A DNA stretch of 64,000 nt from Janthinobacterium lividum (GTDB lineage: Bacteria > Pseudomonadota > Gammaproteobacteria > Burkholderiales > Burkholderiaceae_D). Made by a program: the position numbers and the translations under genes. Location of the stretch: NCBI RefSeq assembly GCF_034424625.1, contig NZ_CP139976.1, positions 5,828,001-5,892,000 on the forward strand. The letters are read 5' to 3'. Numbering within the stretch: position 1 is the stretch's first letter; the number at the start of each line of letters is the position of its first letter. The notes below the pieces were generated by a model that was not told where the DNA came from, did not search any database, and worked only from the letters and a program-made list of their open reading frames with translations. Below are positions 2,184 through 22,636 of the stretch, piece after piece.

Positions 2184-2214
2184 TGCCATTCTCCCCAATG
2201 ATGATGCCTGATTT

Positions 2215-3297: not shown

Positions 3298-3315
3298 ATC
3301 AAAAAGAAAACTCAA

Positions 3316-3359
3316 CAAATATTTGTAAAAGGATTTTCATTGATTTACTTCGTGAAAAT
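3316..3359. promoter_or_regulatory. Candidate operator for the RpiR regulator
   Basis: In the 120-base divergent spacer there is an inverted repeat ATTTTCA (3333-3339) / TGAAAAT (3353-3359) with 13 bases between the arms, and beside it a perfect 10-base palindrome CAAATATTTG (3316-3325). AT-rich inverted repeats of this kind are common targets of RpiR regulators. That this protein binds here is inference from position. Confidence 0.4.
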
Positions 3360-3417
3360 ATTGCTACATAATCGACCGAAATCCATCAACCGCGCCCCGT
3401 TTTGGGGCGAATTCACC

Positions 3418-5961: not shown

Positions 5962-5966
5962 AAAAG

Positions 5967-6000
5967 GCCACGGCGATGCACAATCGCCGTGGCTTTCTTA
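5967..6000. terminator. Bidirectional terminator between permease and hydrolase genes
   Basis: Perfect 11-bp stem GCCACGGCGAT / ATCGCCGTGGC (5967-5977, 5983-5993) with a 5-base loop, a T-rich tail on the plus strand and an A-run at 5961-5966 that serves as T-run for the minus strand. It separates two convergent genes. Confidence 0.85.
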
Positions 6001-7263: not shown

Positions 7264-7358
7264 GGGATCAGGGTCCGATAGGGGGCTGTCGCGTTGTTGA
7301 TCAAGAAAACGGAAATATCAGGGCAGGACCGGGGCCGCGCGCAAACGGCTCCAGCTGC

Positions 7359-7784
7359 TCAACGCCGATAAATATCGGGAAGATACCGCTCCATCAGCGT
7401 CTCCGGCCTGAGCGGCGCCGTAAAGCCGTGACGCGCATACAAGCCATGCGCCGTGCTGGTGGCCAGCATGAAACGGCGCAAACCCTGCAAGTCGGGATGC
7501 GCCATCACGGCCTCCATCAGGCGCTTGCTGTAGCCGCGGCCGCGGCACTCTTCCAGCACATACACGTCGACCAGATAGGCAAACGTGGCGTAGTCGCTGA
7601 CCACGCGGGCGAACGCCACTTGACGGCCGTCCAGCGTGCCGCCGAAGCATAGCGAATGGTCAATAGCGCGCTGTACGGTGGCCTGCGCGATGCCGATGGC
7701 CCATGTCGATTGCGTACTGAGAAAATGGTGAATGGCCGGAACGTCAAGTTCCGCCTTGTCGCTACTGATCTTCAAGTGTGGCAT
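7359..7784 (-). CDS. GNAT-family N-acetyltransferase
   Basis: 141 residues from ATG 7784, which has AGGCGG about 8 bases upstream; the frame is open further upstream, but that part is proline/serine-rich and unlike a protein start. The acetyl-CoA binding motif A is ECRGRGYSKRLMEAVM and the C-terminal ARHGF strand-helix is typical. The closest recognised group is the small GNAT proteins with the YxxHGFxxL ending (YARHGFTAP). It transfers an acetyl group to an unknown amine. No obvious partner among its neighbours. Confidence 0.85.
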   Translation of the reverse strand: MPHLKISSDKAELDVPAIHHFLSTQSTWAIGIAQATVQRAIDHSLCFGGTLDGRQVAFARVVSDYATFAYLVDVYVLEECRGRGYSKRLMEAVMAHPDLQGLRRFMLATSTAHGLYARHGFTAPLRPETLMERYLPDIYRR

Positions 7785-7944
7785 CACGCTGTCCGCCTGT
7801 CGTGGGAAAAGCCGATCATCGGCGATTTGCGCGCTGCTGTCACCTGAGCAGGAAAGAATCGGGCTGCCGCCCCTTCTGACTGCTGATGACGGGGGTACTC
7901 TGCCTGCTGCTGCCGTAGCTGCGACTGGCACGCTGCCGCCATGC

Positions 7945-8151
7945 TTACAGGGCGGCTTTCTCTTCGGCGTTCAGACGCTTGGCGCTGACATACACAGTAT
8001 GCATGGTGGCTTGATCGGCGCTGGCGACGAAGGTCACGGAAGCGGCCGGCGCGGCGCGGAACTTCGGCACGGCGGCGGTGGCCAGGCTGGTAGCAGCGGC
8101 GATGGCGATGATGGCGACGAAGATGGCTTCCATGTTTTTAGCGATGTTCAT
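7945..8151 (-). CDS. Small hydrophobic exported protein, unknown function
   Basis: 68 residues from ATG 8151, preceded by AAAGGAC at a spacing of about 6. Residues 8-24 are a hydrophobic alanine/isoleucine segment (FVAIIAIAAATSLATAA) that could be a signal peptide or an anchor, followed by a short charged tail ending KRLNAEEKAAL. I recall similar short proteins in Oxalobacteraceae, but no function. It is monocistronic, divergent from argH. The frame is open upstream to 8265 without a credible start. Confidence 0.65.
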   Translation of the reverse strand: MNIAKNMEAIFVAIIAIAAATSLATAAVPKFRAAPAASVTFVASADQATMHTVYVSAKRLNAEEKAAL

Positions 8152-8385
8152 GATGGTGTCCTTTGGGTGGCTGGTTGTCTGCTGCGATGATTGAACTGTA
8201 GACCGATCCCCCCTGAACTGCCATCGGATTGCGACCAAACGCACGATTCGCGGGACAGAATACAAAAAGCCCGGATGAAACGCACAACGTGCCCGCGTCG
8301 TGGCATTTGAGGCTTGCGAGCCCCATTCCTGGCCATTTCAGCGCCCTGCAAGGTCCTAAAAGCCCTACCGCCGGCCAACCTTGTT

Positions 8386-8409
8386 TATAATCGCCGTACA
8401 CTAAAGGAC
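8386..8409 (+). promoter_or_regulatory. argH -10 element and ribosome-binding site
   Basis: A perfect TATAAT lies at 8386-8391, 25 bases before the argH ATG, and AAGGAC at 8404-8409 is at suitable spacing. No good -35 hexamer is seen at the matching distance. The short leader suggests simple constitutive expression. Confidence 0.5.
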
Positions 8410-8416
8410 TTCTTTC

Positions 8417-9814
8417 ATGACTGATCAATTCTCCAAAAAGGGCGAAGCCTGGTCGGCCCGGTTTTCCGAACCGGTCTCGGACCTCGTCAAGCGCTACACA
8501 GCTTCTGTATTTTTTGATAAGCGCCTGGCGCTGTTCGACATCGAAGGCTCGCTGGCCCATGCGGAAATGCTGCATGCGCAAGCCATCATCAGCCCGGCCG
8601 ATTACGCGGAAATCCAGCGCGGCATGGCGCAAATCTCGCAGGAAATCGCCGCCGGCCAGTTCGAATGGCTGCTGGACCTGGAAGATGTCCATCTGAATAT
8701 CGAAAAACGCCTGACCGAACTGGTAGGCGACGCGGGCAAGCGCCTGCACACGGGCCGTTCGCGCAACGACCAGGTGGCGACCGACATCCGCCTGTACGTG
8801 CGCGCCGCCATCGACGACATCACCACCCTGCTGGCGACGTTCCGCAGCGCGCTGACGGACCTGGCCGAGCAGCATGCCGACACCATCATGCCGGGCTTTA
8901 CCCACATGCAGGTGGCCCAGCCGATCACCTTTGGCCACCACATGCTGGCGTATGTTGAAATGTTCGGCCGCGACGCCGAACGCATGGCCGACTGCCGCAA
9001 GCGCGTCAACCGCCTGCCGCTGGGCGCCGCCGCGCTGGCCGGCACCACCTTCCCCATCGACCGCTTGCGCGTGGCAAAAACGCTGGGCTTTGACGATGTG
9101 TGCCACAACTCGCTCGACGCCGTCTCGGACCGCGATTTCGCCATCGAATTTTGCGCCGCCTCCGCCGTGCTGATGATGCACGTGTCGCGCATGGCCGAAG
9201 AACTGGTGATCTGGATGAGCCCACGCATCGGTTTCATCGACATCGCGGACCGCTTCTGCACCGGCTCGTCGATCATGCCGCAAAAGAAAAACCCGGACGT
9301 GCCGGAACTGGCGCGTGGCAAGACGGGCCGCGTGTACGGCCACCTGACCGGCCTGCTGACCCTGATGAAAGGCCAGCCGCTGGCCTACAACAAGGACAAC
9401 CAGGAAGACAAGGAACCGCTGTTCGACACCGTCGACACCGTCATCGACACCCTGCGCATCTTCGCCGACATGGCCGGCGGCATCACGGTGAAGCCGGAAG
9501 CGATGCGCGCGGCAGCCCTGCAGGGCTATGCCACGGCGACCGACCTGGCCGATTACCTGGTCAAGAAAGGCTTGCCGTTCCGCGACGCCCATGAAGCCGT
9601 GGCCCTGGCCGTACGCGCCTGCGTCGATGCGGGCTGCGACCTGGCTGACCTGTCGCTGGAGCAGCTGCGCGCCTTCTCGCCACTGACGGGCGAAGACGTG
9701 TTTGAAGTGCTGACCCTGGAAGGCTCCGTGGCCGCGCGCGACCACGTGGGCGGCACCGCACCAAACCAGGTGCGCGCCGCGATTGCCCGCGTGCGCACGC
9801 AGCTGGAAAAATAA
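8417..9814 (+). CDS. argH: Argininosuccinate lyase
   Basis: 465 residues, normal full length. It cleaves argininosuccinate to arginine and fumarate, the last step of arginine synthesis, in the cytosol as a homotetramer. The fumarase/aspartase superfamily signature [12 protein letters not shown] is intact, as are [13 protein letters not shown] and the TFGHHMLAY region. The gene is monocistronic with its own promoter and a strong terminator. No sign of transfer or damage. Confidence 0.98.
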
Positions 9815-9830
9815 GCGGCTTCCATCCCGC

Positions 9831-9866
9831 AAACGCCCCGCTGCAGCGCTGCAGCGGGGCGTTTTT
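9831..9866 (+). terminator. Rho-independent terminator of argH
   Basis: A long GC-rich stem AACGCCCCGCTGCAGC / GCTGCAGCGGGGCGTT is followed by TTTT. The A-run on the left also lets it stop the convergent ACT-like gene. Confidence 0.9.
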
Positions 9867-10522
9867 CATTGCGCGACGATCTTCGACAGCACGGAAAAGG
9901 CGGCCCCCGTCTGTGATGCTTCCAGCAGCAAGGTCAGTTCCGTGTAGGTGCAGATGATATTGATCAGATTGATGCGCTCCCAGGCCAGGCGCTTGAGGAT
10001 GGCGTGATACACGCCTGGCGTATAGCAGGTCTCGGGCGCCAGGTGCAGGGTCACGGCCGTCACGCGCTCCAGGCGCGCCAGTTCCTGCTCGCCGCCGAAG
10101 ACCTCTTCCACCAGCGCGTGCAGGCTGCGGCTGCAGATCACCATCACCTCGTTGACGCCGCGCGTGACCGTGATGAAGGTGCCGCGCTGGGGTGCGGCCA
10201 GCGCCAGCAACTGGCGCTGGCAGTCATAGGTCTGGTCGGAATAGCGGTAGGTAAAAATCATCAATTCACTGCGCGTGGAAAGTTCTCCCGCGCGGTGCGC
10301 CAGCACGATTTCGCCGCTTTTCTGCTGCGGCATCCGTTCGGCCAGGCGGCGCAGCGCCATCACCACGGCGGCCTGCCCCACCGGTTTCCATAAGTCGCTC
10401 TGCAATTGCGGCTGCAGCTGGCGCGCCAGTTCCGACAGGTTCAGCAAGCCGCGGCCCAATCCCTCGCTGAGAAAGGCCGATTCCATCACGATCTGTTCCA
10501 CTTTGGTCGCTATCGAAAGCAT
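9866..10522 (-). CDS. ACT-domain-like regulatory protein
   Basis: 218 residues from ATG 10522. The N-terminal half is helical (residues 1-75, KVEQIVMESAFLSEGLGRGL) and may be a helix-turn-helix-like module. The C-terminal half contains two stretches with an ACT-like beta-alpha pattern (TVTRGVNEVMVICS; VYHAILKRLAWERINLINII followed by TELTLLLE), as in the regulatory tail of aspartate kinases. ACT domains usually bind amino acids. An open frame extends upstream to 10729, but it is low-complexity and unlike coding sequence. No Shine-Dalgarno is evident at the chosen start. Function unknown; position next to argH could be coincidence. Confidence 0.65.
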   Translation of the reverse strand: MLSIATKVEQIVMESAFLSEGLGRGLLNLSELARQLQPQLQSDLWKPVGQAAVVMALRRLAERMPQQKSGEIVLAHRAGELSTRSELMIFTYRYSDQTYDCQRQLLALAAPQRGTFITVTRGVNEVMVICSRSLHALVEEVFGGEQELARLERVTAVTLHLAPETCYTPGVYHAILKRLAWERINLINIICTYTELTLLLEASQTGAAFSVLSKIVAQ

Positions 10523-11193
10523 AGTTCGTCGGGCCGGTGATTCCGGTGCACGCACCAGGAGCCGGCAACCCTTCCTGAAAAAAGGATGCACTGCGCCAGC
10601 GGCCGCGCCGGGCGGCGCGGTCGGACTCGCGGAAAAGAACCCCCTCGCGGGGGGAAGAACCGGCTGGCGGCGGCTAGGAAGGCGGATGCAGCATGAATGC
10701 CGCTCCAGAGGGGAAATGGCTGAAACCAACAGCAGAAAACAGAACTGACGTCATGTGAAACTCCCGAATTTTTTTCCCGATGCGCTGTATCTGGACGCGG
10801 TCATTGCCGCGTGCGCTTTTTTTGTCTTCGCCTGGTCCGTTGGGGCCACGCGAATACCTAGTGTAGATCGCAACATTTAGAAAATGCAACAGTGTTTTTC
10901 CAACAGAACGCGCCATTAGGGGAAGTAGTCCAAAACAAAAGTTACAGCTTGTGGTAGATCAAACTTTGCGCTGATGTAGCACCGACAAATGTTCAATTCT
11001 TAACAAAAATTCGCGTAGTGACCCATTTCTTGAATTTTTTGACATGGCGATATCGACAAGTTTAGTGTCCCCCTACCCGGCGTCATGCCACCACAAAACG
11101 GCAGGCTATCCGCCTGTCAGGCACGCCGGGGTGGCCATCAGGCATCGCGGCCAGCTCATTCACCATTTCCTTAACCGATACCATGGAGCAGAA
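10523..11193. other. Intergenic region upstream of the metalloprotease gene
   Basis: The left half (10523-10850) is GC-rich with no credible gene. The stretch 10860-11045 is markedly AT-rich and holds several possible -10 boxes, a sign of a regulated promoter for the M4 protease. From 11070 to 11150 there are short hairpins (for example GCAGGC/GCCTGT) in what would be the 5' leader. I could not match them to a known riboswitch. Confidence 0.5.
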
Positions 11194-13725
11194 ATGAATT
11201 TACGTTTGACGATAGTTGCCGCATCCATCGCCGCCCTGCCGCTGATGGCTACCACGGCAGACGCCGCCACGCCGCTGCCACAGACCCTGATGGCCGCCCC
11301 GGTCGCCCTGGCTTCTCCACAAGAGACCGCCAGCCTGGTCAACAAGCTGGCTGCGCAGGCGCGCAGCCGCGGCCTGAATACCGAACATGGCTTTGCCGTC
11401 GGCGCCCAGCATCCTGGCGTCAGCGGCACACGCGTGAGCCGCGTGCAGCACACCTACAAGGGTTTGCCCGTCTTCGGTTCCGAAACGGTCGTGGTCAGCA
11501 ACAGCGCCGGCGACATCGTCAGCGAATCCGTGTCGGACCGCGCTTCCGGCCTCGGTAGCGGCGGTGTCAATTCCGTCACCCGCAGCGCCACCACCGATAT
11601 CGACACCACGCCCGCCATCAGCGCGGCGGCAGCCATCGCCGCCGCCGTGGACAGCATTGGCGTGCGCGCCGTCGACCACGTGCCGCCGCATGCGCAACTG
11701 CTGATCTACCCCGTCATGAAAACCGTGCGCGTGGCCGGCGCCGAGAACAAATCGGAAGCCGCGTTGAACGCCCTCGACGTGCAGGACGTGGTCGACCACT
11801 ACGAACTGGCCTATCTGGTGCAGACGCGCATGATCAGCGGTAACAAACCCGTCTACTACGACACCGTCGTCAGCGCCAAGGATGGCCGCATCCTGCGTCA
11901 ATGGAAAGCCCTGAAAACCGTGGCCGGCATCGGCAACAGCCAGTACAACGGCCAGGTACCGCTCAACACCACGCTCACGGGCAGCACCTACACCATGAAG
12001 GACCCCAGCCGCGGCACGGGCGGCAGCTTCGGCGGCATGGCCATCACGAATGCCAATCACGGCACCAGCTCGGGCAGCGTGTACAGCAGCACCAGCAATA
12101 CCTGGGGCGACGGCCAGCAATACATCAACGGCGGCAGCACCACCAACGCCAATGGCCAGACGGCGGCCGTGAACGCGATGTGGGGCCTGATGAACACCTA
12201 CGACACGCACAAGAATGTGCTGGGCTGGTCCAGCCTGGACGGCAACAACACGGCAACCCACATCGCCGCCCACGTCAACACGGCCTACGACAACGCCTAC
12301 TACGACAGCAGCTGCAAGTGCATGTACATCGGCGACGGCGGCAGCTCGTTCAACAACCTCGGTTCCATCGACGTGATCGGCCACGAAATGGGCCACGGCA
12401 TCACGGACGCCACCTCGGGCCTGATCTACTCGCAAGAGTCGGGCGGCTTGAACGAATCGAGCTCGGACATCGCCGGTGAAATGGTGGAAGCGTATGCGCG
12501 CGCCGGCGGCACGGGCACCACGATCCCCAACACGGGCAACGATTGGATGACGGGCAAGGAAATCGCCAAGAATGGCCAGCCGCTGCGTTGGCTGTACAAG
12601 CCAAGCAAGGATGGCAGCAGCCCGAATGCGTGGAGCAGCACCATCAAGAACCTCGACGTCCACTACAGCAGCGGCCCGAACAACCGCATGTTCTACTTCC
12701 TGTCGCAAGGGTCGAACTCCACGTCCAGCAGCGACTACTACAGCTCCTACCTGAACAAAAGCCCGCTGGCCATGACCGGTATCGGCAGCGACAAGGCTTA
12801 CCGCATCTGGTTCAAGGCCGCCACCACCAAGTTCACTTCGTCGACCAACTACGCCGACGCGCGCAACAAGGTGCTGCTGGCAGCCGAGGAACTGTATGGC
12901 GTGGGCAGCGCCGAGGCGATCGCCGTCAAGCGCGCGTATGCGGCCATCAACGTGGGCGCCGACGTCGATGAATCGACGACGGGCGGCGCGGTGACCATCA
13001 CCAGCCAGCCGGCCAGCATCACCGTCGCACCGGGCGCCACCGCCTCGTTCGCCGTGGGCGCGGGCGGCGGCACGGCACCGTACACCTACAAGTGGTACCG
13101 CAACGGCGCCGTGATCAGCGGCGCCACATCGCCCGCCTACAGTTTCACGACCGTAGCGGCCGACAGCGGCGCCGTCTTCAAGGCCACGGTGACGGATTCG
13201 TCCTCGCCTGCCGTGACGGCCACGTCGAACAACGCCACGCTGACGGTGGGCACGAGCAGCGCCACCGAACGCGTGACGAACGGCGGCTTCGAGTCCGGCG
13301 CCACGGGTTGGAGCGGCACCACGGGCGCCATCGGCACCTTCACGGGCCAAACCGCGTACGAAGGCACGAAGTACGCCTGGCTGGGCGGCAATGGCACGAC
13401 AGCCAGCGAATCGCTGACGCAAAGCGTGGCCATTCCGGCCGCCGCCACCTCGGCCAGCCTGAGCTTCGCGCTGCATATCGACACGGCTGAAACGGGCAAT
13501 ACCGTGTACGACAAGCTGGTCGTCACCGTGAAGAACAGCGCCGGCACGGTGCTGGGCACCCTGGCCTCGTACTCGAACGTGAACAAGGCTGCCGGCTACC
13601 AGATCCGCACGTTTGACCTGATCGCCTACAAGGGCCAGACCGTGCAGATCTCGTTTGCCGCGACCGAGGACGCATCGCTGCAAACCTCGTTCGTGATCGA
13701 CAAGGTCAGCCTGGTCACCCAGTAA
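11194..13725 (+). CDS. Secreted M4 (thermolysin-like) metalloprotease with C-terminal beta domains
   Basis: 843 residues from ATG 11194, which has GGAG at good spacing. Order: signal peptide (1-25, ending TTADA), fungalysin/thermolysin propeptide (about 45-230, including VQHTYKGLPVFGSETVV), M4 catalytic domain (about 260-590) with zinc ligands H397, H401 and E421 (HEMGH, then GGLNESSSD) and the second catalytic histidine near H490, an immunoglobulin-like domain (about 600-685) and a galactose-binding-like beta-sandwich (about 690-843). Such enzymes are made as zymogens, exported by Sec and usually released by type II secretion. It directly precedes a type II-like operon, 250 bases away and behind a hairpin, so separately transcribed. 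Confidence 0.95.
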   Translation: MNLRLTIVAASIAALPLMATTADAATPLPQTLMAAPVALASPQETASLVNKLAAQARSRGLNTEHGFAVGAQHPGVSGTRVSRVQHTYKGLPVFGSETVVVSNSAGDIVSESVSDRASGLGSGGVNSVTRSATTDIDTTPAISAAAAIAAAVDSIGVRAVDHVPPHAQLLIYPVMKTVRVAGAENKSEAALNALDVQDVVDHYELAYLVQTRMISGNKPVYYDTVVSAKDGRILRQWKALKTVAGIGNSQYNGQVPLNTTLTGSTYTMKDPSRGTGGSFGGMAITNANHGTSSGSVYSSTSNTWGDGQQYINGGSTTNANGQTAAVNAMWGLMNTYDTHKNVLGWSSLDGNNTATHIAAHVNTAYDNAYYDSSCKCMYIGDGGSSFNNLGSIDVIGHEMGHGITDATSGLIYSQESGGLNESSSDIAGEMVEAYARAGGTGTTIPNTGNDWMTGKEIAKNGQPLRWLYKPSKDGSSPNAWSSTIKNLDVHYSSGPNNRMFYFLSQGSNSTSSSDYYSSYLNKSPLAMTGIGSDKAYRIWFKAATTKFTSSTNYADARNKVLLAAEELYGVGSAEAIAVKRAYAAINVGADVDESTTGGAVTITSQPASITVAPGATASFAVGAGGGTAPYTYKWYRNGAVISGATSPAYSFTTVAADSGAVFKATVTDSSSPAVTATSNNATLTVGTSSATERVTNGGFESGATGWSGTTGAIGTFTGQTAYEGTKYAWLGGNGTTASESLTQSVAIPAAATSASLSFALHIDTAETGNTVYDKLVVTVKNSAGTVLGTLASYSNVNKAAGYQIRTFDLIAYKGQTVQISFAATEDASLQTSFVIDKVSLVTQ

Positions 13726-13736
13726 GCGGCTGAACA

Positions 13737-13770
13737 TGCGGGCAAGCCATCGCGACAAGGCTTGCCCGCA
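13737..13770 (+). terminator. Hairpin after the metalloprotease gene
   Basis: TGCGGGCAAGCC / GGCTTGCCCGCA is a perfect 12-bp stem with a 10-base loop, 11 bases after the stop. There is no T-run, so it may act as a weak or mRNA-stabilising structure. Confidence 0.6.
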
Positions 13771-13975
13771 CGGCACGATTGATTTCCTGGCAATTCCAGT
13801 CTACCCTGAAGCAGTGATTGCATCTTGCCTGCTGCTGGTACCCGCGACGAATTGAACTTTTTTTTGGATTGTTCCTGACCGATGCCTACTTCGACCTTGT
13901 CCGCACGCGCATTCCCCTTTTCACATCACCCCATTTTGACGCCCCAGGCCCTCGCCATGCTCGCCTGAGCCGACG

Positions 13976-15169
13976 ATGCAGTTCCACCTTCAGGTGCAGG
14001 GCCCGGCGGGCAGCCAGGCGCTGGCCATCGACGCCGCCAGCGAGGCCGAAGCGATCCGCGCGGCCGTGCGCGGCGGCTGGCGCGTGCTGGCCGTCGACGC
14101 TGGCGCTGCGCAGGAGACGGGCGTCGCGCTGCGTCCCGGCAAACAGGGCCTGCCTCTGCTGCAATTCAGCCAGGAGCTGCTGGCCCTGCTCGAAGCGGGC
14201 CTGAACCTGGGCGAGGCCATGGCCACCCTGCATAACAAGGAAACGCGACCAAGCGCAAAGGCCACGCTGGCCGCCATCGTGCTCACCTTGCAACAGGGCC
14301 TAAGCTTTTCCGACACCCTGGCCGGTTTCCCCGACATCTTCCCCGACATTTACATCGCCACCGTGCATGCGGCCGAACGCTCGGGCAACCTGCCCGAGGC
14401 GCTGGCGCGCTTCGTCGGCTACCAGCTGCAGTTCGACGCCATCCGCAAGAAACTCATTTCCGCCGCCATCTACCCGTGCATGCTGCTCGTCGTCGGCGGC
14501 CTGGTGACCCTGTTCCTGCTCGGCTACGTGGTGCCCAAATTCAGCGTCGTCTACGAAAGCTCGGGCCGCGAGATTCCCTGGATGTCGCAAATGCTGCTCG
14601 GCTTTGGCCAGACCCTGGCCGCGCATCCGCTGCTGTGCGCCAGCGCGCTGGCCGCCGTGGTGGCCGCCGTGGTCTTCGGCATCGCCAATGCCGGCGCGCG
14701 CCAGGCCCTGGTCTTGCGCCTGCTGCGCCTGCCCGTGCTGGCGGAGAAGGCTGCCGAATTCCGCCTGGCCCGCTTCTATCGGGCTCTCAGCCTGCTGCTG
14801 CATGCCGGCATCCCCCTGCACAAGGCGCTGGCCATGGTCGCGCCCATGCTGCTGCCGGCGCAGCAGGAGCAGCTGGCGCAGGCGCGCCGCGCGGTGCAGG
14901 AAGGCATGCCGTTTTCCACCGCGCTGGAACACGCCGGCATGGCCACGCCGGTGGCGCAATCGCTGCTGAAAGTGGGCGAGAACACGGGCCGCCTGGGTGA
15001 CATGCTGGAACGCTCGGCCAAATTCCACGACGAGGAATTCGCCCGCTGGGTGGACTGGGCCTCGCGCCTGCTCGAACCGCTCTTGATGACCATCATCGGC
15101 GTCGTCATCGGCGGCGTGGTGGTGCTGATGTACATGCCGATCTTTGAACTGGCCGGGAGCTTATCGTGA
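13976..15169 (+). CDS. Type II secretion/type IV pilus inner-membrane platform protein (GspF/PilC family)
   Basis: 397 residues, the usual length. Two T2SS-F domains (about 60-180 and 265-385) with three membrane spans (around 165-190, 215-240 and 365-390). Motifs FSQELLALLEAGLNL, ERSGNLPEAL, GIPLHKALAM and ENTGRLGDMLE are diagnostic of the family. It forms the platform that the ATPase turns to assemble pseudopilin or pilin. First gene of a ten-gene operon; ATG 13976 is preceded only by a weak GAG. The next gene begins 25 bases after its stop. Confidence 0.95.
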   Translation: MQFHLQVQGPAGSQALAIDAASEAEAIRAAVRGGWRVLAVDAGAAQETGVALRPGKQGLPLLQFSQELLALLEAGLNLGEAMATLHNKETRPSAKATLAAIVLTLQQGLSFSDTLAGFPDIFPDIYIATVHAAERSGNLPEALARFVGYQLQFDAIRKKLISAAIYPCMLLVVGGLVTLFLLGYVVPKFSVVYESSGREIPWMSQMLLGFGQTLAAHPLLCASALAAVVAAVVFGIANAGARQALVLRLLRLPVLAEKAAEFRLARFYRALSLLLHAGIPLHKALAMVAPMLLPAQQEQLAQARRAVQEGMPFSTALEHAGMATPVAQSLLKVGENTGRLGDMLERSAKFHDEEFARWVDWASRLLEPLLMTIIGVVIGGVVVLMYMPIFELAGSLS

Positions 15170-15194
15170 CGGTTTTTACCATGTGGTGCCTGCC

Positions 15195-16892
15195 ATGAAC
15201 GCGCGCGACGAAGAACGGGCCGTGCTTGATGCTGCCATGCTGCGCCGGGCCCACGCCAGCGCGCTGGAACAGGGCCGCCCGCGGATGGCCGTGCTGCAGG
15301 AAATGGCGGCCTTGCCGCCCGAAGTCTTTTTGCGCCAGCTGGCCGCCCTGTTCCGCTACCCGGCCTGGACGATGGCCGAGCTGCAAGCCGCCTTGCCCGC
15401 CTTTGCCCTGCTGCCCTACACGGATTGCGCCCAGCGCGACTGCGTGCTGCTGCAGCCGGGCGTCCCCGGCGCGCCGCCCGTGCTCGTCGTCGGCAACCCG
15501 TTTGCGGAAGACCTGCTGCAGTGGGCCGACTTCGCCCTGTCCACGCCCTTCACGGTAGCGCTGGCGCACCCGGACGACCTGGCCGCCTATCTGCTGCAGC
15601 AGGAAAGCGTGCAGCAGGCGATGCAGGAAATGCAGCACGGAGATGACGTGCCGGGACTCGACCAGAGTATCGAGGATATCTCGCTGATCCGCATCAGCGA
15701 AGACAGCAGCCCCGTAGTGAAACTGGTGAACTCCACCATCTACGATGCCCTGAAATTCCAGGCCAGCGACATCCACCTCGAATGCGACGTGGCCAGCCTG
15801 GTCATCAAATACCGCGTCGACGGCGTGCTGGTACAGGCAGGCCAGGTGCAGGGACTGGCGATGGCCGAGCAGATCATCTCGCGCATCAAGGTCATGGCCG
15901 ATCTCGACATCGCCGAGCGCCGCATCCCGCAGGACGGCCGCTTCAAGGTGCGCGTGAAAGGGGCGGAGATCGACTTTCGCGTCTCCATCATGCCGAATAT
16001 CTTTGGCGAGGACGCCGTGCTGCGCCTGCTGGACCGGCGCGCGCTGACGGAAGCGGCGCAAGCGCTGCGCCTGGAAAGCCTGGGCCTGAACGAGGACGCC
16101 ATCGAGCAGATACGCCGCCTGGCCGCCAAGCCGCACGGCATGCTGCTGGTGACCGGGCCCACGGGTTCCGGCAAGACCACCACCCTGTATGCGGCCATCA
16201 CGGAAATCAATACGGGCCGCGACAAGATCGTCACCATCGAAGACCCCGTCGAATACCGCTTGCCGCGCGTGCTGCAGATACCCGTCAATGAAAAGAAGGG
16301 ACTGACGTTCGCGCGCGGCCTGCGCTCCATCCTGCGCCACGATCCCGACAAGATCATGATCGGCGAAATCCGCGACGATGAGACGGCGCAGATCGCCGTG
16401 CAGGCCGCGCTCACGGGCCACCTGGTGTTTACCACCGTGCACGCGAACAACGTCTTTGATGTGGTGGGCCGCTTCCTGCACATGGGCGTGGACGCCTACA
16501 GCTTTGCGGCGGCCCTGAACGGCATCGTGGCGCAGCGCCTGCTGCGCCTCAATTGCGCCCATTGCGCCGTCGATGCCAGCGCCGAGGTGCTGGCCGATGC
16601 GCAGCAGCTGCGCGACAGCGGCCTGGCCCTGCACCAGGTGCAGGACTGGCAATTCATGGCCGGCAAGGGCTGCGGCCACTGCCGCGGCACCGGCTACAAG
16701 GGCCGCAAGGCCGTCGCCGAAGTGCTGATGCTCAGTGACGCCATGCGCGAAATGATCTGCACGCGGGCGCCCTTGAGCCAGATGAAGGAAGAAGCGGCGC
16801 GCAACGGCTTTCGCCTGGCGCGCGAAGCGGGCCTGGATCTGGTGCGGCGCGGCGAAACCACTTTAGCGGAGCTCAATCGTGTCACTTATTGA
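15195..16892 (+). CDS. Assembly ATPase (GspE/PilB family)
   Basis: 565 residues. N-terminal domain (1-140) like MshEN/GspE-N but divergent, then the T2SSE ATPase core: Walker A GPTGSGKT at 321-328, an Asp box (TIEDPVEY), Walker B region IMIGEIRDDETA, His box TGHLVFTTVHANN. A tetracysteine zinc site (C454, C457, C493, C496) is present. That motif marks assembly ATPases (GspE, PilB, MshE) and is absent from PilT retraction ATPases. ATG 15195 is the first in-frame start compatible with the preceding gene; its stop overlaps the next gene by 14 bases. Confidence 0.95.
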   Translation: MNARDEERAVLDAAMLRRAHASALEQGRPRMAVLQEMAALPPEVFLRQLAALFRYPAWTMAELQAALPAFALLPYTDCAQRDCVLLQPGVPGAPPVLVVGNPFAEDLLQWADFALSTPFTVALAHPDDLAAYLLQQESVQQAMQEMQHGDDVPGLDQSIEDISLIRISEDSSPVVKLVNSTIYDALKFQASDIHLECDVASLVIKYRVDGVLVQAGQVQGLAMAEQIISRIKVMADLDIAERRIPQDGRFKVRVKGAEIDFRVSIMPNIFGEDAVLRLLDRRALTEAAQALRLESLGLNEDAIEQIRRLAAKPHGMLLVTGPTGSGKTTTLYAAITEINTGRDKIVTIEDPVEYRLPRVLQIPVNEKKGLTFARGLRSILRHDPDKIMIGEIRDDETAQIAVQAALTGHLVFTTVHANNVFDVVGRFLHMGVDAYSFAAALNGIVAQRLLRLNCAHCAVDASAEVLADAQQLRDSGLALHQVQDWQFMAGKGCGHCRGTGYKGRKAVAEVLMLSDAMREMICTRAPLSQMKEEAARNGFRLAREAGLDLVRRGETTLAELNRVTY

Positions 16893-17667
16893 ACGCCTTA
16901 CCCGCGCCACCCTGTGCCTGCACCTGGCGCCGCACGGGCTGCACGGCGTGCTGCGCCGCGCCGGCCGTCCCGTGCCCGACAGCGCCTTCCACCTGCCCAT
17001 TACGAACCCCGACGCCAGCTGGGAAGTGGCGCTGGCCGCCCTGCGCGGCTGGCTCGAACAGCACAATGAAAAAAAACTGCCGTTGGCCGTCAGCCTGGCC
17101 AGCCGCTGGTGCGCCATGCTGATGGTGCCGTGGAGCGGCGCCCTGCTCGACCGAACCAGCGCACAGCGCTTCCTGCACAGCCAGTTCGCTGCCGTCTACG
17201 GCGATGGCGCGCGCGCCTGGCGCCTGGCTGCCGACGATGCGCCCTATGGCAAGCCACGCCTGGCCTGCGGCATCGATGCGGCCCTGCTGCACGGCGTGCA
17301 GGAGGCGGCGGCCGCGCATGGACGGCGCTGCCTGTCCCTCGAACCCATCGTCGGGCCGGCCTGGCGCAGCATCGCCGGCGGCAAACCTGCCGCCTTCGCC
17401 CTGGTGGAAGCGGGACGGCTGCTGCTGGCAACGACGGGCGGCGGGCGCATCACGGGCTTGCATAGCCAGTCCTGCAGCGCCGCCTGGGGCGACGAACTGG
17501 ATCGGGCGTGGCGGCGCTGGAACTTGCGCGCACCACAACTGGACGAGATCGAACACGTGGCGCTGCTCGACTTGAGCGGCATGCCGCAGGACGAGCTGCC
17601 GGCACGCTTCCAGCCCCTTCCCGTGGCCGGCGCCGCCCACCTGATGCGGGAGGCAGCATGGGCCTGA
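16879..17667 (+). CDS. PilM/GspL-cytoplasmic-like assembly protein
   Basis: 262 residues, no membrane segment. By position (between the ATPase and a PilN-like protein) and by its actin-fold-like pattern it fits PilM or the cytoplasmic half of GspL, which links the ATPase to the inner-membrane ring. Sequence similarity is too weak for me to see an ATP-binding motif. Start is GTG 16879, supported by GGAG 7 bases upstream; it overlaps the ATPase gene by 14 bases and the next gene by 10. Confidence 0.7.
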   Translation: MSLIERLTRATLCLHLAPHGLHGVLRRAGRPVPDSAFHLPITNPDASWEVALAALRGWLEQHNEKKLPLAVSLASRWCAMLMVPWSGALLDRTSAQRFLHSQFAAVYGDGARAWRLAADDAPYGKPRLACGIDAALLHGVQEAAAAHGRRCLSLEPIVGPAWRSIAGGKPAAFALVEAGRLLLATTGGGRITGLHSQSCSAAWGDELDRAWRRWNLRAPQLDEIEHVALLDLSGMPQDELPARFQPLPVAGAAHLMREAAWA

Positions 17668-18200
17668 GCCGCCTGGAATTGCTGGCGCCCGGCGCAGTGC
17701 AGACGTTCAAGGGCTGGCGCCTGGCCCTGTGCCTGGCGGGCGGCTTGCTGCTGCTGCCGGCCGCCGGGTACTGGCTGGTGCAGGCACAGGAAACGCGGCG
17801 CCTGGAAGCGCAGCTGGCGCAGCTGCAGCCCGCGCGTCCCGTGCGCGCGCCCTTGTCCGCCAGCCAGCAGCGCGAACGCGACATCGAACTGAAACAGGTG
17901 GCTGCCGCCGTGCGCCAGCTTAACCTGCCCGTCACGCGCCTGGTCAAGACCGTGCAGGCGCCGCGCGACGTGCGCGTGGCCTTGCTGGGGCTGGACCTGA
18001 ACGCACAGCAGGGACAGGATGGCGCCAGCGTCCTGAAGATCGCCGCCGAGGCGGAAACGCCGCAGGACATGCTCAACTACCTGGCTTTCCTGAACCAGCA
18101 GCCCATGTTCAGCTCCGTGTATCTGCTCAAGCACGAGATGAATGCGAACGCCCCCGAACACCCTTACCGTTTTCAGCTGGAGGCGCAATGGCGGCAATAA
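17658..18200 (+). CDS. PilN-like inner-membrane assembly protein
   Basis: 180 residues: a short cytoplasmic N-terminus, one membrane span (about 20-43, LALCLAGGLLLLPAAGYWLV), a coiled-coil (about 45-95), and a small alpha/beta periplasmic domain ending FQLEAQWRQ. This is the PilN/GspL-periplasmic layout. ATG 17658 has GGAGG 4-5 bases upstream and lies inside the previous gene. It should pair with the PilO-like protein encoded next. Confidence 0.75.
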   Translation: MGLSRLELLAPGAVQTFKGWRLALCLAGGLLLLPAAGYWLVQAQETRRLEAQLAQLQPARPVRAPLSASQQRERDIELKQVAAAVRQLNLPVTRLVKTVQAPRDVRVALLGLDLNAQQGQDGASVLKIAAEAETPQDMLNYLAFLNQQPMFSSVYLLKHEMNANAPEHPYRFQLEAQWRQ

Positions 18201-18808
18201 AACCCGTATTCAAAGCCAGCACGCCCGTGGCCCGCACGCGCCTGCAGCTGCGCATGCCGCCGCGCCTGGCGTGGGAAGCGCAACGTTTGTGGCGCACCCT
18301 CGGCTGGCCCAGCGCCCTCGGCGCGGCCTGCCTGGCGCTGGCCGCTTTCGCCATGCAGCAGGGCGATGCGCTGGCCGCACGCCAGCAGCAATTGGCGGCG
18401 CAACTGGCCGCTGCTGCCAGACAGTCGGCGCTGCCGCCGGCACCCATCACGCTCGATGCCGATGCGGACAGCCTGGCCGCCTTTCACGCCTACCTGCCCG
18501 CGCATGACAGCATTCCCGACCAATTGAAGGCCTTGCTGGAAGTGGCGCAAAAGAGCGGTGTCACCCTGGCCAAGGCCGACTACAAGCCGCAGGAAGACGG
18601 CAACACGGCCTTCCTGCGCTACCAGATCACCCTGCCCGTCAAAGCCGAATACGCGCAGTTGCAGACCTTTATCGTCGATGCCCTGCAGGCGCTGCCCACC
18701 CTGACGCTCGACTCCGTGCTGTTCAAGCGCGAGCAGATCGAGGCGGGCGAGATCGACGCGCGCATCCAGTTCATCCTGCTGGTGAAAAAGCCGGAGGTGC
18801 GATCATGA
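18188..18808 (+). CDS. PilO-like inner-membrane assembly protein
   Basis: 206 residues: a basic cytoplasmic tail, one membrane span (about 38-57), a coiled-coil (55-80) and a ferredoxin-like domain (about 100-205; YQITLPVKAEYAQLQTFIVD is the PilO/GspM-like strand-helix). ATG 18188 is preceded by GGAGG and overlaps the previous gene by 13 bases. Expected to form a heterodimer with the PilN-like protein in the periplasm. Confidence 0.75.
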   Translation: MAAIKPVFKASTPVARTRLQLRMPPRLAWEAQRLWRTLGWPSALGAACLALAAFAMQQGDALAARQQQLAAQLAAAARQSALPPAPITLDADADSLAAFHAYLPAHDSIPDQLKALLEVAQKSGVTLAKADYKPQEDGNTAFLRYQITLPVKAEYAQLQTFIVDALQALPTLTLDSVLFKREQIEAGEIDARIQFILLVKKPEVRS

Positions 18809-19338
18809 AGAAAGTCGTGTTGGCCGGCGCGGCCGTGGCGACCCTGCTGGCCGCCTTCTTCGCACCGGAAGACGAAGGCAGCATCGTCGGACCAGCCACC
18901 GCCACCACGCGCCAGGTGGAACGGGTACCGGCGGCGCTTGCGGTGGCCACGCCACCTGCGCCCCCGTCCGCGCTGGCCATCCATCCACGCCGCGCGCTCG
19001 ACGATGAAGAGGCAGCGACCCTGTTCGCCAAGCAGAGCTGGCAGCCGGAGACGCCGAAAAAGATCATGCTCGACCAGCAGGCAGCCCAGGCTGCACTACC
19101 CGCTGTCCCCGTCGATGCGAACGCGCCGCCACCGCTGCCCTTTCAATTCCTAGGCCGCTTTGTCGACGAAGGCAAGGCGGCCTATTTCCTGCAAGCGGGC
19201 GAACGCAACGTGGTGGCGCGCCCCGGCGACACGCTTGAAGAGCGTTACCGCTTCGACGGCGTGGTGCAGGGCGCCCTGCAATTTACCTATCTGCCGCTCA
19301 ACCTGAAACAGACACTCGCCGTAGGGGACCTCAATTGA
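18805..19338 (+). CDS. PilP/GspC-like connector protein
   Basis: 177 residues. An N-terminal hydrophobic segment (residues 3-19) acts as signal or anchor; a proline/alanine-rich linker (30-110) follows; the C-terminal 60 residues (PLPFQFLGRFVDEGKAAYFL onward) match the HR/PilP-type beta domain that binds the secretin N0 domain. No lipobox is seen, unlike classical PilP. ATG 18805 overlaps the previous stop (ATGA) behind GGAGG. It bridges the inner-membrane ring to the secretin. Confidence 0.75.
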   Translation: MKKVVLAGAAVATLLAAFFAPEDEGSIVGPATATTRQVERVPAALAVATPPAPPSALAIHPRRALDDEEAATLFAKQSWQPETPKKIMLDQQAAQAALPAVPVDANAPPPLPFQFLGRFVDEGKAAYFLQAGERNVVARPGDTLEERYRFDGVVQGALQFTYLPLNLKQTLAVGDLN

Positions 19339-21257
19339 AACGACGCGCCGCACGTAAGTCTCGTACTATCCTCACCCTGCTCCCGGTGCTGTCCCTGCTG
19401 GCCGCCTGCGCCGGCAACCAGGCCTATAACGATGGCCAGGCCATGCTGGGCGCGGGCCGCACGGAACAGGGCCTGGCCCTGCTGGAACAGGCGGCACAGG
19501 CCGAACCGACCAACGCCAAGTACCGCATCGCCGTCACCAGCGGCCGGATGCGCGCGCTGAACAAGCTGAATGGCGCTGCGGAAGCGCTGCGCCGGCAGGG
19601 CAAGCTGCCCGAAGCGCAGGCGTTGTACCAGCAGGCGCTCGCGCTGGACGCCAGCAACGACGTGGCGCAGCGGGGCTTGGCCGGCGTGGTGCAGGATGAA
19701 CGGCACCGCAAGCTGGTGCAGGAGGCGCAGGCCAGCTACCAGCGCGGCGGCGAAGCGAATATCGCGCAGGCGCAGGAAGCCTTGCGCCAGGTGCTGCAGG
19801 AGCGCCCCGCACAGCGCGAGGCGCTGGCCCTGAAAAACCGCATCGGCGAGGCGCAATCCAAAAGCCTGCCGGCCGGCGGCAAGCTGGCGGCCGCCTACCG
19901 CAAACCCGTGACCCTCGAATTTCGCGACGCGTCGCTGCGCTCCGTGTTCGATCTTCTCAGCAAGGTCTCGGGCCTGAACTTCGTCTTCGACAAGGAGGTC
20001 GACCCTGCCCTGCGCGCCACCATTTCCGTGCGCGACACCAGCATCGAAGAAGCGATTGCCATGCTGCTCGGCGCCAACCAGTTGGAACAAAGCGTCACCA
20101 GCGACAAGTCGATCACGATCTACCCGAACACGCCGCAAAAGGTGAAGGATTACCAGCAGCTCGTGGTGCGCACCTTCTTTCTCGCCAATGCCGACGTCAA
20201 GACGGTGGCGTTTTCCATCAAGACCCTGCTCAAGGCCAAGGATGTCGTCACCGACGAGCGACTGGGCATCATCATGCTGCGCGATACGCCGGAAATGGTG
20301 CGCATGGCCGAGCGCATCATCAACGTGCAGGACCTGGCCGACCCGGAAGTGATGCTGGAAGTCGAGGTACTGGAAGTCAAGCGCACGCGCCTGATGGAAC
20401 TAGGCGTGCGCTGGCCAGACCAGGCCAGCCTGACACTGGCTGGCGTCGCAGGTAGCACGGGAGGACTCGGCGGCCTGAAGGTGGCGGACCTGCACCGCAT
20501 CAATGGCGACAATATCAACCTGGGCATCGGCGGCGTCACCCTGAACGCCAACAAGACGGACAGTGACAGCAATATCCTGGCCAACCCGCGCATCCGCGTG
20601 CGCAACAAGGAAAAGGCCAAGATCCTGATCGGCGACCGGGTGCCCGTCATTACCGTCACGACGAATAACGGCGTCAGCTCCGACAGCGTCAATTACATCG
20701 ACGTGGGCTTGAAGCTCGACGTCGAACCGAACGTCTACCTGGACGACGAGGTGGCCATCAAGATCAACCTGGAAGTGTCGAACGTGGTCAAGGAAGTGAT
20801 CAGCAAGACGGGCACGCAGGCTTACCAGATCGGCACGCGCAGCGCTTCCACGGTGCTGCGCCTGAAGGACGGCGAGACGCAGGTGCTGGCGGGCCTGATC
20901 AGCGACGAAGACCGGGGCACGGCCAACAAGGTGCCCGGCGTGGGCGAGCTGCCCGTGCTGAACCGCCTGTTCGGCAGCCAGAAGGATGACGCCATGCGCA
21001 GCGAGATCGTGCTGTCGATCACGCCGCGCCTGCTGCGCAGCATCCGCCGCCCGGACCTGACGACGGCCGAATTCAATTCCGGCACCGAGGCATCCGTGGG
21101 CGGCCGCGCCAGCGTGGGCGGCACGCCGGAAGCCATCACCGCGCCCGAGCAGGCCCCACCGCGTACCGGCTCGCCCATGACGGGCGGCGACGAAGCGCCC
21201 GTCGCCGGCGACAAGGCCAGCGCCACGCCACAGGCCACGGTCAAAGGTGGCCAGTGA
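19335..21257 (+). CDS. Outer-membrane secretin lipoprotein with TPR-like N-terminus (MshL/GspD family)
   Basis: 640 residues. Signal peptide with lipobox LAAC; residues 30-165 form TPR-like helices (repeats AEAL..QGKLPEAQALYQQAL); then a secretin N-terminal domain (about 195-260, VTLEFRDASLRSVFDLLSKV), an N1 domain and the secretin core (about 355-565) with the hallmark VLAGLISDEDR. The C-terminal 60 residues are low-complexity. Start is TTG 19335 in a TTGA overlap with the previous stop, backed by AGGGGA 6 bases upstream. It forms the outer-membrane ring of the machine. TPR plus secretin in one chain resembles MSHA-type rather than classical GspD secretins. Confidence 0.92.
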   Translation: MKRRAARKSRTILTLLPVLSLLAACAGNQAYNDGQAMLGAGRTEQGLALLEQAAQAEPTNAKYRIAVTSGRMRALNKLNGAAEALRRQGKLPEAQALYQQALALDASNDVAQRGLAGVVQDERHRKLVQEAQASYQRGGEANIAQAQEALRQVLQERPAQREALALKNRIGEAQSKSLPAGGKLAAAYRKPVTLEFRDASLRSVFDLLSKVSGLNFVFDKEVDPALRATISVRDTSIEEAIAMLLGANQLEQSVTSDKSITIYPNTPQKVKDYQQLVVRTFFLANADVKTVAFSIKTLLKAKDVVTDERLGIIMLRDTPEMVRMAERIINVQDLADPEVMLEVEVLEVKRTRLMELGVRWPDQASLTLAGVAGSTGGLGGLKVADLHRINGDNINLGIGGVTLNANKTDSDSNILANPRIRVRNKEKAKILIGDRVPVITVTTNNGVSSDSVNYIDVGLKLDVEPNVYLDDEVAIKINLEVSNVVKEVISKTGTQAYQIGTRSASTVLRLKDGETQVLAGLISDEDRGTANKVPGVGELPVLNRLFGSQKDDAMRSEIVLSITPRLLRSIRRPDLTTAEFNSGTEASVGGRASVGGTPEAITAPEQAPPRTGSPMTGGDEAPVAGDKASATPQATVKGGQ

Positions 21258-21724
21258 AACCACGCGGCTTTACTTTCATCGAGCTGATGATCACCCTGGC
21301 GATCATGGCGACCCTGGCCACGGTGGCCGTGCCCATGGCGCAGGTGGCCCTGCAACGGGCGAAGGAACAGCAATTGCGCAGCGCCCTGATCGAAATGCGC
21401 GAAGCGATCGATGCCTATAAGCGCGCCTCGGACAATGGCCGCATCAAGCTGTCGCTGGGCGCTTCCGGCTACCCGAAAAAACTCGAGGAACTGGTCGAAG
21501 GGGTGCCCGACCAGCGCAGCGTCTCGAAGCAGAACATCTATTTTTTGCGCCGCCTGCCGCGCGACCCGTTCCAGCCCAGGGAAGAAGGCAGCGCCGCCGA
21601 CAGCTGGAGCAAGCGCGCCTATGCCTCACCGCCCGACAATCCCAGCGAAGGCGAGGACGTGTTCGACGTCGCCTCGCGCTCGACCAAGGTGGGCCTGAAC
21701 GGCGTGCCGCTCAAGGAATGGTGA
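21254..21724 (+). CDS. Major-type pseudopilin (GspG-like)
   Basis: 156 residues. Class III signal peptide KPRG then FTFIELMITLAIMATLATVA: cleavage after glycine, phenylalanine at +1 and glutamate at +5. A C-terminal globular part with LRRLPRDPF and DVASRS is like GspG. Start is GTG 21254 overlapping the secretin stop (GTGA), behind AAGGTGG. Needs a prepilin peptidase that is not encoded here. Confidence 0.88.
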   Translation: MKPRGFTFIELMITLAIMATLATVAVPMAQVALQRAKEQQLRSALIEMREAIDAYKRASDNGRIKLSLGASGYPKKLEELVEGVPDQRSVSKQNIYFLRRLPRDPFQPREEGSAADSWSKRAYASPPDNPSEGEDVFDVASRSTKVGLNGVPLKEW

Positions 21725-22113
21725 ACTTGATGCCCTCTTCTATCTCACGCCGCGGCTTTACCCTGGTCGAACTGCTGGTGGTGCTGGCGATCATCTCGCT
21801 GCTGCTGACGATTGCCATTCCCCGCTATTTCGGCTCGGTGGAAAAATCCAAGGAAGTCGCGCTGAAGGAAAACCTGCAAGTGCTCAGGAGCGGCCTAGAT
21901 AAATACTATGCCGACAAGGGCGAGTATCCGGCCGCGCTGGCCGACCTGGTGACCCACCATTACTTCCGCAGCGTGCCGCTGGACCCCGTCACGGAGTCCG
22001 CCACCACCTGGCAGCTGATCCCTTCGCCCAATGGCGAGATCGGCGGCGTGGCCGACGTGCGCAGCGGCGCCAAGGGCAAGACGCGCGAGGGCATCCCCTT
22101 TGAGCAGCTCTGA
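21718..22113 (+). CDS. Second pseudopilin (GspG-like)
   Basis: 131 residues from ATG 21718; ATG 21730 is also possible and the ribosome-binding site does not decide. Prepilin leader ending RRG, mature FTLVELLVVLAIISLLLTIA with glutamate at +5. The mature domain (YYADKGEYPAALADLVTHHY, SVPLDPVT) is close to the GspG core. It overlaps the previous gene by 7 bases. Two GspG-like subunits in one operon suggest a filament of mixed composition or a paralogous minor subunit. Confidence 0.88.
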   Translation: MVNLMPSSISRRGFTLVELLVVLAIISLLLTIAIPRYFGSVEKSKEVALKENLQVLRSGLDKYYADKGEYPAALADLVTHHYFRSVPLDPVTESATTWQLIPSPNGEIGGVADVRSGAKGKTREGIPFEQL

Positions 22114-22636
22114 TTTTCGACGCCGCGCACGGGGCTTCGCCTACATCTGGACCCTGATGCTGGTGGCCTTCATGGGCGTGGGCCTGGTGCTGGCCAGCGA
22201 GCTGTTTGCTACGGCCGCGCGGCGCGACAAGGAGCGCGAGCTGCTGTTCATCGGCCATGAATTCCGCAATGCGCTGGGCCGCTACTACGACAGCACGCCG
22301 GGCGACGGGCGGCCCCGCTATCCCTTGACCTTGCAGGAACTGCTGCGCGACCCGCGCTTTGCCAACGCCCGGCGGCACTTGCGCCGCCTGTATGCTGACC
22401 CTGTCACGGGCAAGGCGGAATGGGGTGTGCTGCGGCAGGAGGGACGCATCGTCGGCATCCATTCGCTGTCGCCACAGCTCCCCATCAAGCAGGACAATTT
22501 TCTCGACGAAGACGCCAGCCTGCGCCGCAAGCAGCGCTACGCGGACTGGCAGTTCACGTATCCGCACGACCTGGTGCTGGCCCCGCCCGATGCCGCCGGC
22601 GGCGCGCCCGGGCTCAAGCCGAAAAGCGCAAACTGA
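22100..22636 (+). CDS. Minor pseudopilin lacking Glu+5 (GspK-like position)
   Basis: 178 residues from TTG 22100, the only start in frame that gives a proper prepilin leader (short basic tail SSSDFRRRARG); GAGGG lies 8 bases upstream. The mature part begins FAYIWTLMLVAFMGVGLVLA, with tryptophan in place of glutamate at +5. In type II systems the pseudopilin without Glu+5 is GspK, which caps the pseudopilus tip; the same role is inferred here. The rest (about 45-178) resembles no domain I recognise. Overlaps the previous gene by 14 bases and ends the operon; 45 bases later the M24 peptidase gene starts with its own strong ribosome-binding site. Confidence 0.78.
   Translation: MSSSDFRRRARGFAYIWTLMLVAFMGVGLVLASELFATAARRDKERELLFIGHEFRNALGRYYDSTPGDGRPRYPLTLQELLRDPRFANARRHLRRLYADPVTGKAEWGVLRQEGRIVGIHSLSPQLPIKQDNFLDEDASLRRKQRYADWQFTYPHDLVLAPPDAAGGAPGLKPKSAN

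Follow-up and report, generated by a model that had tools for sequence, protein, structure and literature searches.

A protease-linked pseudopilus operon of Janthinobacterium as a probable dedicated exporter of an unnamed type II secretion-like family

A 64,000-nucleotide stretch of Janthinobacterium lividum DNA (the window, at its full length) carries ten pseudopilus genes at 13976–22636, on a single strand and in the order F-E-M-N-O-P-D-G1-G2-K. The question raised by this locus is what such a compact machine is for. The original prediction had described it as a complete core that neither type II secretion system (T2SS) nor type IV pilus (T4P) naming fits, and had left its job open. Judged from the sequence comparisons below, the operon is probably a dedicated, cargo-linked exporter of an unnamed T2SS-like family. 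The adjoining M4 metalloprotease would be its likely cargo, and the peptidase and, likely, the major pseudopilin would be supplied in trans. All ten predicted open reading frames (ORFs) were present, and neighbouring ORFs overlapped by a few bases throughout, provided that E starts at the TTG at 15144. The window is located on a 6.32-Mb contig (C1); a second contig of the same genome (C2) comprises 440 kb. Its protein matches at 92–98% bear Janthinobacterium names.

The candidate cargo is a secreted, thermolysin-like M4 metalloprotease with an immunoglobulin (Ig)-like domain, encoded at 11194–13725 on the plus strand (Pfam Peptidase_M4, M4_C, FTP and a weak Ig_3). Its ORF is listed from 11044, and the ATG preceding the signal peptide is at 11194; signal peptide and HEMGH motif were identified by reading of the sequence. 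In a set of 40 Janthinobacterium genomes, 30 M4 genes matched strongly (E below 1e-29). They were spread over exactly the 28 genomes that have the operon, and none of the 12 genomes without it had one (Fisher 1.8e-10, uncorrected for relatedness); six weak matches (E 4e-4 to 9e-4) were left uncounted. The secretin search identified 27 of the operon-positive genomes, and the last one, G061, was recognised by a contig-end piece (M4-F-E-M-N) beyond which its genes were not seen. Two of the 12 negative genomes (G058 and G067) were less than 90% complete.

The linkage was also positional. In 25 of 26 fetched window-type regions, the M4 gene precedes the operon in the same orientation, as it also does in both copies of the window's own genome and in G061. 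The exception, G040, had two tandem M4 genes (L226, 2526–7657) further upstream, and the roughly 4 kb that separate them from the operon contain other ORFs. We further examined named loci, which are the best 80 of at least 479 stretches confirmed with the secretin alignment in a scan of named genomes. An upstream M4 gene was present in 14 of 14 window-type named loci (whose contigs account for 14 of the 26 fetched regions) vs 0 of 54 other testable loci. The window's own genome encodes two strong M4 genes, one beside each operon copy; a further, borderline match lies elsewhere. The co-occurrence supports the cargo reading, and the protease gene should be included at the 5' end of the unit.

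The second property of the window-type operon is a missing component. The prediction that a large pilin is lacking was right and can be made more specific: the major pseudopilin GspG (PF08334), which the relatives have, was not found in the window operon. Hence, 'complete core' was wrong. Of the named loci, 66 are not of the window type; leaving aside 10 that have no F ORF and 2 that are cut off by a contig edge, 54 were testable, and 50 of these have GspG immediately 5' of F. None of the 14 window-type loci does. GspG was likewise found in 0 of the 26 fetched window-type regions, one of which (L179) ends before D. The same genome contains PF08334 three times: in the canonical Gsp locus, in a sister system at C1:1877 kb and, on C2, behind the second operon copy. 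The GspG proteins of two sister loci (L019 and L021) scored 178.3 and 173.7 against an equivalog cut-off of 88.85, and the C2 GspG matched solved GspG structures. All 28 genomes with the window-type operon encode a sister-type GspG (>240 bits), compared with 4 of the 12 that lack the operon (Fisher 6.4e-6, uncorrected for relatedness); this distribution fits borrowing of GspG.

The loss of GspG might also mean that the window copy is decaying or non-functional. The consistent absence of GspG from window-type regions, with a GspG on C2, speaks for this, as does one stop inside the matched secretin frame in two of 26 other genomes. However, all ten frames are open in the window copy, the secretin is kept at 73–96% identity in the 26 other genomes, and seven proteins are identical in amino acids between the genome's two copies (see below). 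We therefore regard decay as very improbable.

Pfam identified F, E, the secretin with its tetratricopeptide repeat (TPR) and the N_methyl pseudopilins as predicted, and O barely; M, N, P and K had no Pfam match. F (13976–15169, plus strand, as are all ten genes) is a GspF/PilC-like inner-membrane platform (T2SSF 174 bits). E (15144–16892, or starting at the ATG at 15195) is a GspE/PilB-like assembly ATPase (T2SSE 417 bits); its domain calls were made on a slice taken from 15171, where there is no start codon. D (19335–21257) is a TPR-containing secretin (Pfam Secretin 133 bits, STN, Secretin_N and TPR) with a lipobox recognised by reading of the sequence. G1 (21254–21724) and the short G2 (21718–22113) are N_methyl pseudopilins with glutamate at position +5 (Glu+5). 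The predicted misfit with existing names was confirmed, as F, E, D, G1 and G2 were each below all Gsp, Pil and Msh equivalog cut-offs of NCBIfam. F scored 245.5 on GspF (cut-off 424). E scored 482.7 on GspE (630.25) and 465.3 on PilB (675.65). D scored 151.9 on PilQ (284.35), 149.8 on GspD (351.35) and 99.7 on MshL (250.2). On the GspG model, G1 and G2 reached 34.8 and 52.0 (88.85). The canonical GspE (684.2 bits) and GspD (627.7 bits) of the same genome exceeded their cut-offs.

M (16879–17667) had been called PilM-like. The AlphaFold2 model (predicted local distance difference test, pLDDT, 90.8) has the actin-like fold common to PilM and the cytoplasmic domain of GspL. In Foldseek, cyto-EpsL was best by E-value (1.9e-12) and by target-normalised template modelling (TM) score (0.66), with PilM near (3.6e-11); by query-normalised TM score, some PilM chains (0.65–0.68) were above cyto-EpsL (0.61). 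Overall, the modelled fold appears no further from the cytoplasmic domain of GspL than from PilM. N (17658–18200) is PilN-like or similar to the periplasmic part of GspL: N proteins of two relatives scored 22.0 and 23.8 on the PilN model (cut-off 22.8), and M and N were fused in one ORF, in GspL fashion, in 12 of 84 family stretches (M alone in 58, no M match in 14, contig ends included). O (18188–18808) is PilO-like, with 22.6 bits on PF04350 against a cut-off of 22. P (18805–19338), a conserved family, is a single-pass protein with a proline-rich linker and a small C-terminal domain at the PilP/GspC position. K (22100–22636, TTG start) is pseudopilin-like and the candidate tip subunit. As predicted, it lacks Glu+5: the N-terminus is prepilin-like, and Glu+5 was found in 0 of 77 family members by a simple pattern that mis-sited at least one row (L050). 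Its AlphaFold2 model (pLDDT 80.3) shows a long N-terminal helix. GspC, GspH, GspI, GspJ and GspK were not detected in the window operon.

The ATPase and secretin phylogenies separated the operon from the known systems, as expected for a distinct machine. In the ATPase tree, 28 family rows and one row not recruited as family formed a clade with 100 in the Shimodaira–Hasegawa-like approximate likelihood ratio test (SH-aLRT). In a second tree, from which seven rows (mostly with long branches or odd letter make-up) had been removed, the 29-row family clade again had SH-aLRT 100, and 17 canonical GspE rows formed their own clade. The 28 family secretins also formed one clade (SH-aLRT 100). Family rows had been recruited via secretin similarity, which favours clustering. 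Gene order was strongly conserved among the best 80 of at least 479 named loci. The ATPase backbone left room for several groupings: the family could form a joint clade with GspE (p 0.44), TfpB/PilB-type ATPases (p 0.46) or the MSHA-type pair (mannose-sensitive haemagglutinin; p 0.166, in a test holding both MSHA-type sister rows together), and none of these was rejected. The operon belongs to an unnamed T2SS-like family whose ATPase and secretin are apart from the Gsp, MSHA-type and TfpB-like parts of the same genome.

When 100 genomes of the window's order were sampled, 45 had secretin matches (E up to 1e-60). In a sample of the phylum, to which the search was confined (three best candidates scored per genome), 6 of 299 genomes had matches, all 6 within the window's order. 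One locus on a contig labelled Desulfovibrionales (L078) nested among Gallionellaceae in both trees, which is probably a binning error. Because of this grouping, it was excluded as evidence of spread.

An alternative is that the operon builds a surface pilus that serves adhesion or DNA uptake, the M4 protease being an unrelated passenger or a pilus trimmer. The TPR secretin and the split M, N, O and P recall type IV pili, M matches PilM too, and the ATPase placements with TfpB/PilB-type or MSHA-type proteins were not rejected. But the operon has neither a retraction ATPase nor a large pilin of its own; peptidase, PilT, PilA and adhesin were all absent among the ten genes, as originally predicted. 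Moreover, the two tested sister loci carry a GspG above the equivalog cut-off, and the M4 gene co-occurs with the operon (28 of 28 vs 0 of 12). The MSHA-type, TfpB-like and Gsp ATPases are also encoded in the same genome, apart from the window operon. We consider a pilus unlikely. The sister GspG scores, together with the M+N fusion in 12 loci, support a secretion machine instead.

Membership in the MSHA or classical T4P systems was likewise rejected, since cut-offs were missed and separate loci exist in the same genome. The MSHA pilus shares with the operon a locus without peptidase. The MSHA features of the original prediction did not hold for the secretin: a separate MSHA-type secretin of the same genome scored 250.4, barely above the MshL cut-off, against 99.7 for the window D. 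The type IVa pilus shares the PilO domain at cut-off, the split M/N/O/P arrangement and PilB among the best PDB matches of the ATPase; it differs in the missed PilB and PilQ cut-offs and in PilT, PilA and adhesin. With canonical T2SSs (Gsp/Out/Xcp), the operon shares F, E, secretin, a GspL/PilM-like M, pseudopilins and a subunit without Glu+5; the sister loci have a true GspG, and a peptidase can be shared. It differs in the absence of GspG from the window copy, the TPR secretin, the split M and N, the sub-cut-off Gsp scores and the separate clades, although a common ATPase clade with GspE is still compatible. On this evidence, the operon would work like a T2SS, yet it is outside canonical T2SS, MSHA and type IVa pilus by curated definitions.

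The missing peptidase, presented as remarkable in the original prediction, was rejected as a special feature. Four Peptidase_A24 genes are located elsewhere in the genome (best at C1:1267572), and, according to passages of PMC6668835, all MSH loci lack a peptidase and the peptidases of T2SS and T4P can be shared. Short T2SSE-family ATPases are encoded at C1:1165–1167 kb; PilT/PilU is their label by interpretation.

Published systems offer parallels by description. An 'atypical type II secretion system' of Geobacteraceae reportedly appears in the title of a paper by Mehta from 2006. This Pul/OxpG variant is the best published lead, by description and not by sequence. As far as the relevant passages of PMC3543383 go, it is needed for secretion of a multicopper oxidase and, like the operon, has few pseudopilins (two or three each in Pelobacter). 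A second parallel, again by description and not by sequence, is the Hxc system of Pseudomonas aeruginosa, an additional T2SS besides Xcp with its own effector LapA (excerpt of PMC5646246). In our literature searches, and for these searches only, no publication on the secretin or operon family surfaced apart from the Geobacter lead.

Exported-protein genes were found beside several sister systems. PEP-CTERM genes adjoin the sister system at C1:1877 kb. By pattern, 18 of 71 testable loci (L019, 16887–17384, and 17 more) have a PEP-CTERM-like gene no more than 450 bp beyond K; 2 of the 18 were checked with Pfam. These genes hint at a link between the exporter family and PEP-CTERM surface proteins. 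A third family system in the same genome (L022; C2, about 320–340 kb; 108–17453) has the permuted order O-P-D-G1-G2-K-F-E-M-N. Its secretin bears a cohesin domain, and GspG was not found in the system, which adjoins a 2317-aa SpvB/TcdB-mid/RHS-like protein. RHS/SpvB-like proteins were found beside five of six permuted loci (L022 and four of five fetched relatives); in the fifth relative (L193), no large ORF was seen at this position by inspection of ORFs. In six near relatives (L036, L037, L038, L041, L046 and L055), large proteins 5' of F share a C-terminal region of ~170 residues (L055 weakly), which is possibly a sorting or anchoring domain. The three scanned proteins (L036, L038 and L055) had Ig-like domains. 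Several lineages thus hold their own exported-protein gene beside the operon, with most loci unexamined for cargo, and this supports cargo-linked export. Together with the M4 co-occurrence, these genes would point to protein export, and leaving the job open was too cautious.

The operon could, by contrast, be a general second T2SS for many exoproteins, with M4 as its most visible neighbour. The canonical T2SS of the genus exports many enzymes (parts of PMC10470514), and sister loci often have no recognisable cargo gene. Against this, M4 and the operon are linked one to one across 40 genomes, and sister systems have other exported proteins linked to them; we find this reading quite unlikely, a shade more so than the pilus.

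The two copies of the window's own genome also support a cargo-specific exporter. The C2 copy aligned with the window over 8595 bp without gaps at 99.15% identity. The 73 mismatches were unevenly distributed: 12 in the first 43 bases, 31 beyond 22082 and none at 18087–22082. E, N, O, P, D, G1 and G2 showed no amino-acid differences. The proteases encoded upstream agree in 71% of their residues, and the K proteins have diverged as well. The C2 copy, unlike the window copy, carries GspG. A near-identical core with divergent protease and tip is what gene conversion would leave if it had acted on the core of two older loci, and this suggests that protease and K carry specificity. In plasmid records, the operon had one match (14% covered at 75.8%) and the C2 flank none; C2 was not shown to be a plasmid.

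Such an exporter would operate as follows. Sec would take the M4 protease to the periplasm, where it would fold. E, acting via M-N-O-P and F, would build a short, K-tipped pseudopilus, and this would drive the cargo through the TPR secretin D. The prepilin peptidase would be supplied in trans by the PilD-type gene of the genome. The major pseudopilin would likely come in trans from the sister system at C1:1877 kb or from the second copy on C2; alternatively, G2 may have assumed this role.

Several points weigh against a dedicated protease exporter. The M4–operon co-occurrence could be a marker of one co-inherited island, and no secretion data were found for the operon family. GspG borrowing is suggested by co-occurrence, and the canonical Gsp locus has a GspG as well. 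For P, which had been called PilP-like, no PilP or GspC homology was detected: there was no PDB match, and no PilP or GspC Pfam match among 17 family members. K has no detectable GspK homology, no Foldseek match at E 0.001 and only weak pilin-helix matches in the PDB profile search (best E 0.0014). Of the 71 testable loci, 53 are without a PEP-CTERM gene after K. A strong hairpin is located between the protease gene and F at 13737–13770 on the plus strand (13726–13790 folds at -30.7 kcal/mol, z -3.5). No terminator-like site was found there in a terminator scan. The hairpin may mark two transcription units or an attenuator.

G+C content was 66.6–69.6% in three 2-kb windows across 14001–20000 and 60.2–65.6% elsewhere in the stretch, including the operon end. 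Together with the patchy presence in the genus, this may reflect acquisition from a higher-G+C relative.

For Janthinobacterium, the operon is a candidate route for the protease activity that persists in a canonical-system mutant. In the relevant sections of PMC10470514, a gspE mutant of J. agaricidamnosum kept strong proteolysis on milk agar, with three proteases up and two down in its secretome. This leaves room for a second protease exporter, which could be the operon if J. agaricidamnosum carries it. A wider reading is a tentative one: the family may consist of modular single-cargo machines with their own exported-protein gene per lineage, of which the Janthinobacterium protease branch dropped its own major pseudopilin and runs on the GspG of a sister. 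If true, a single filament subunit would serve two secretion machines, each of which keeps a tip and a cargo of its own. The locus bears on two open questions, namely cargo choice by type II systems and the interchangeability of pseudopilins between machines. With two near-identical engines, different proteases, partly different tips and sister systems in one genome, cargo choice becomes testable by single-gene removal. For the components tested, the secretins in 45 of the 100 genomes sampled from the order belong to an export-like family that curated equivalog models leave unnamed.

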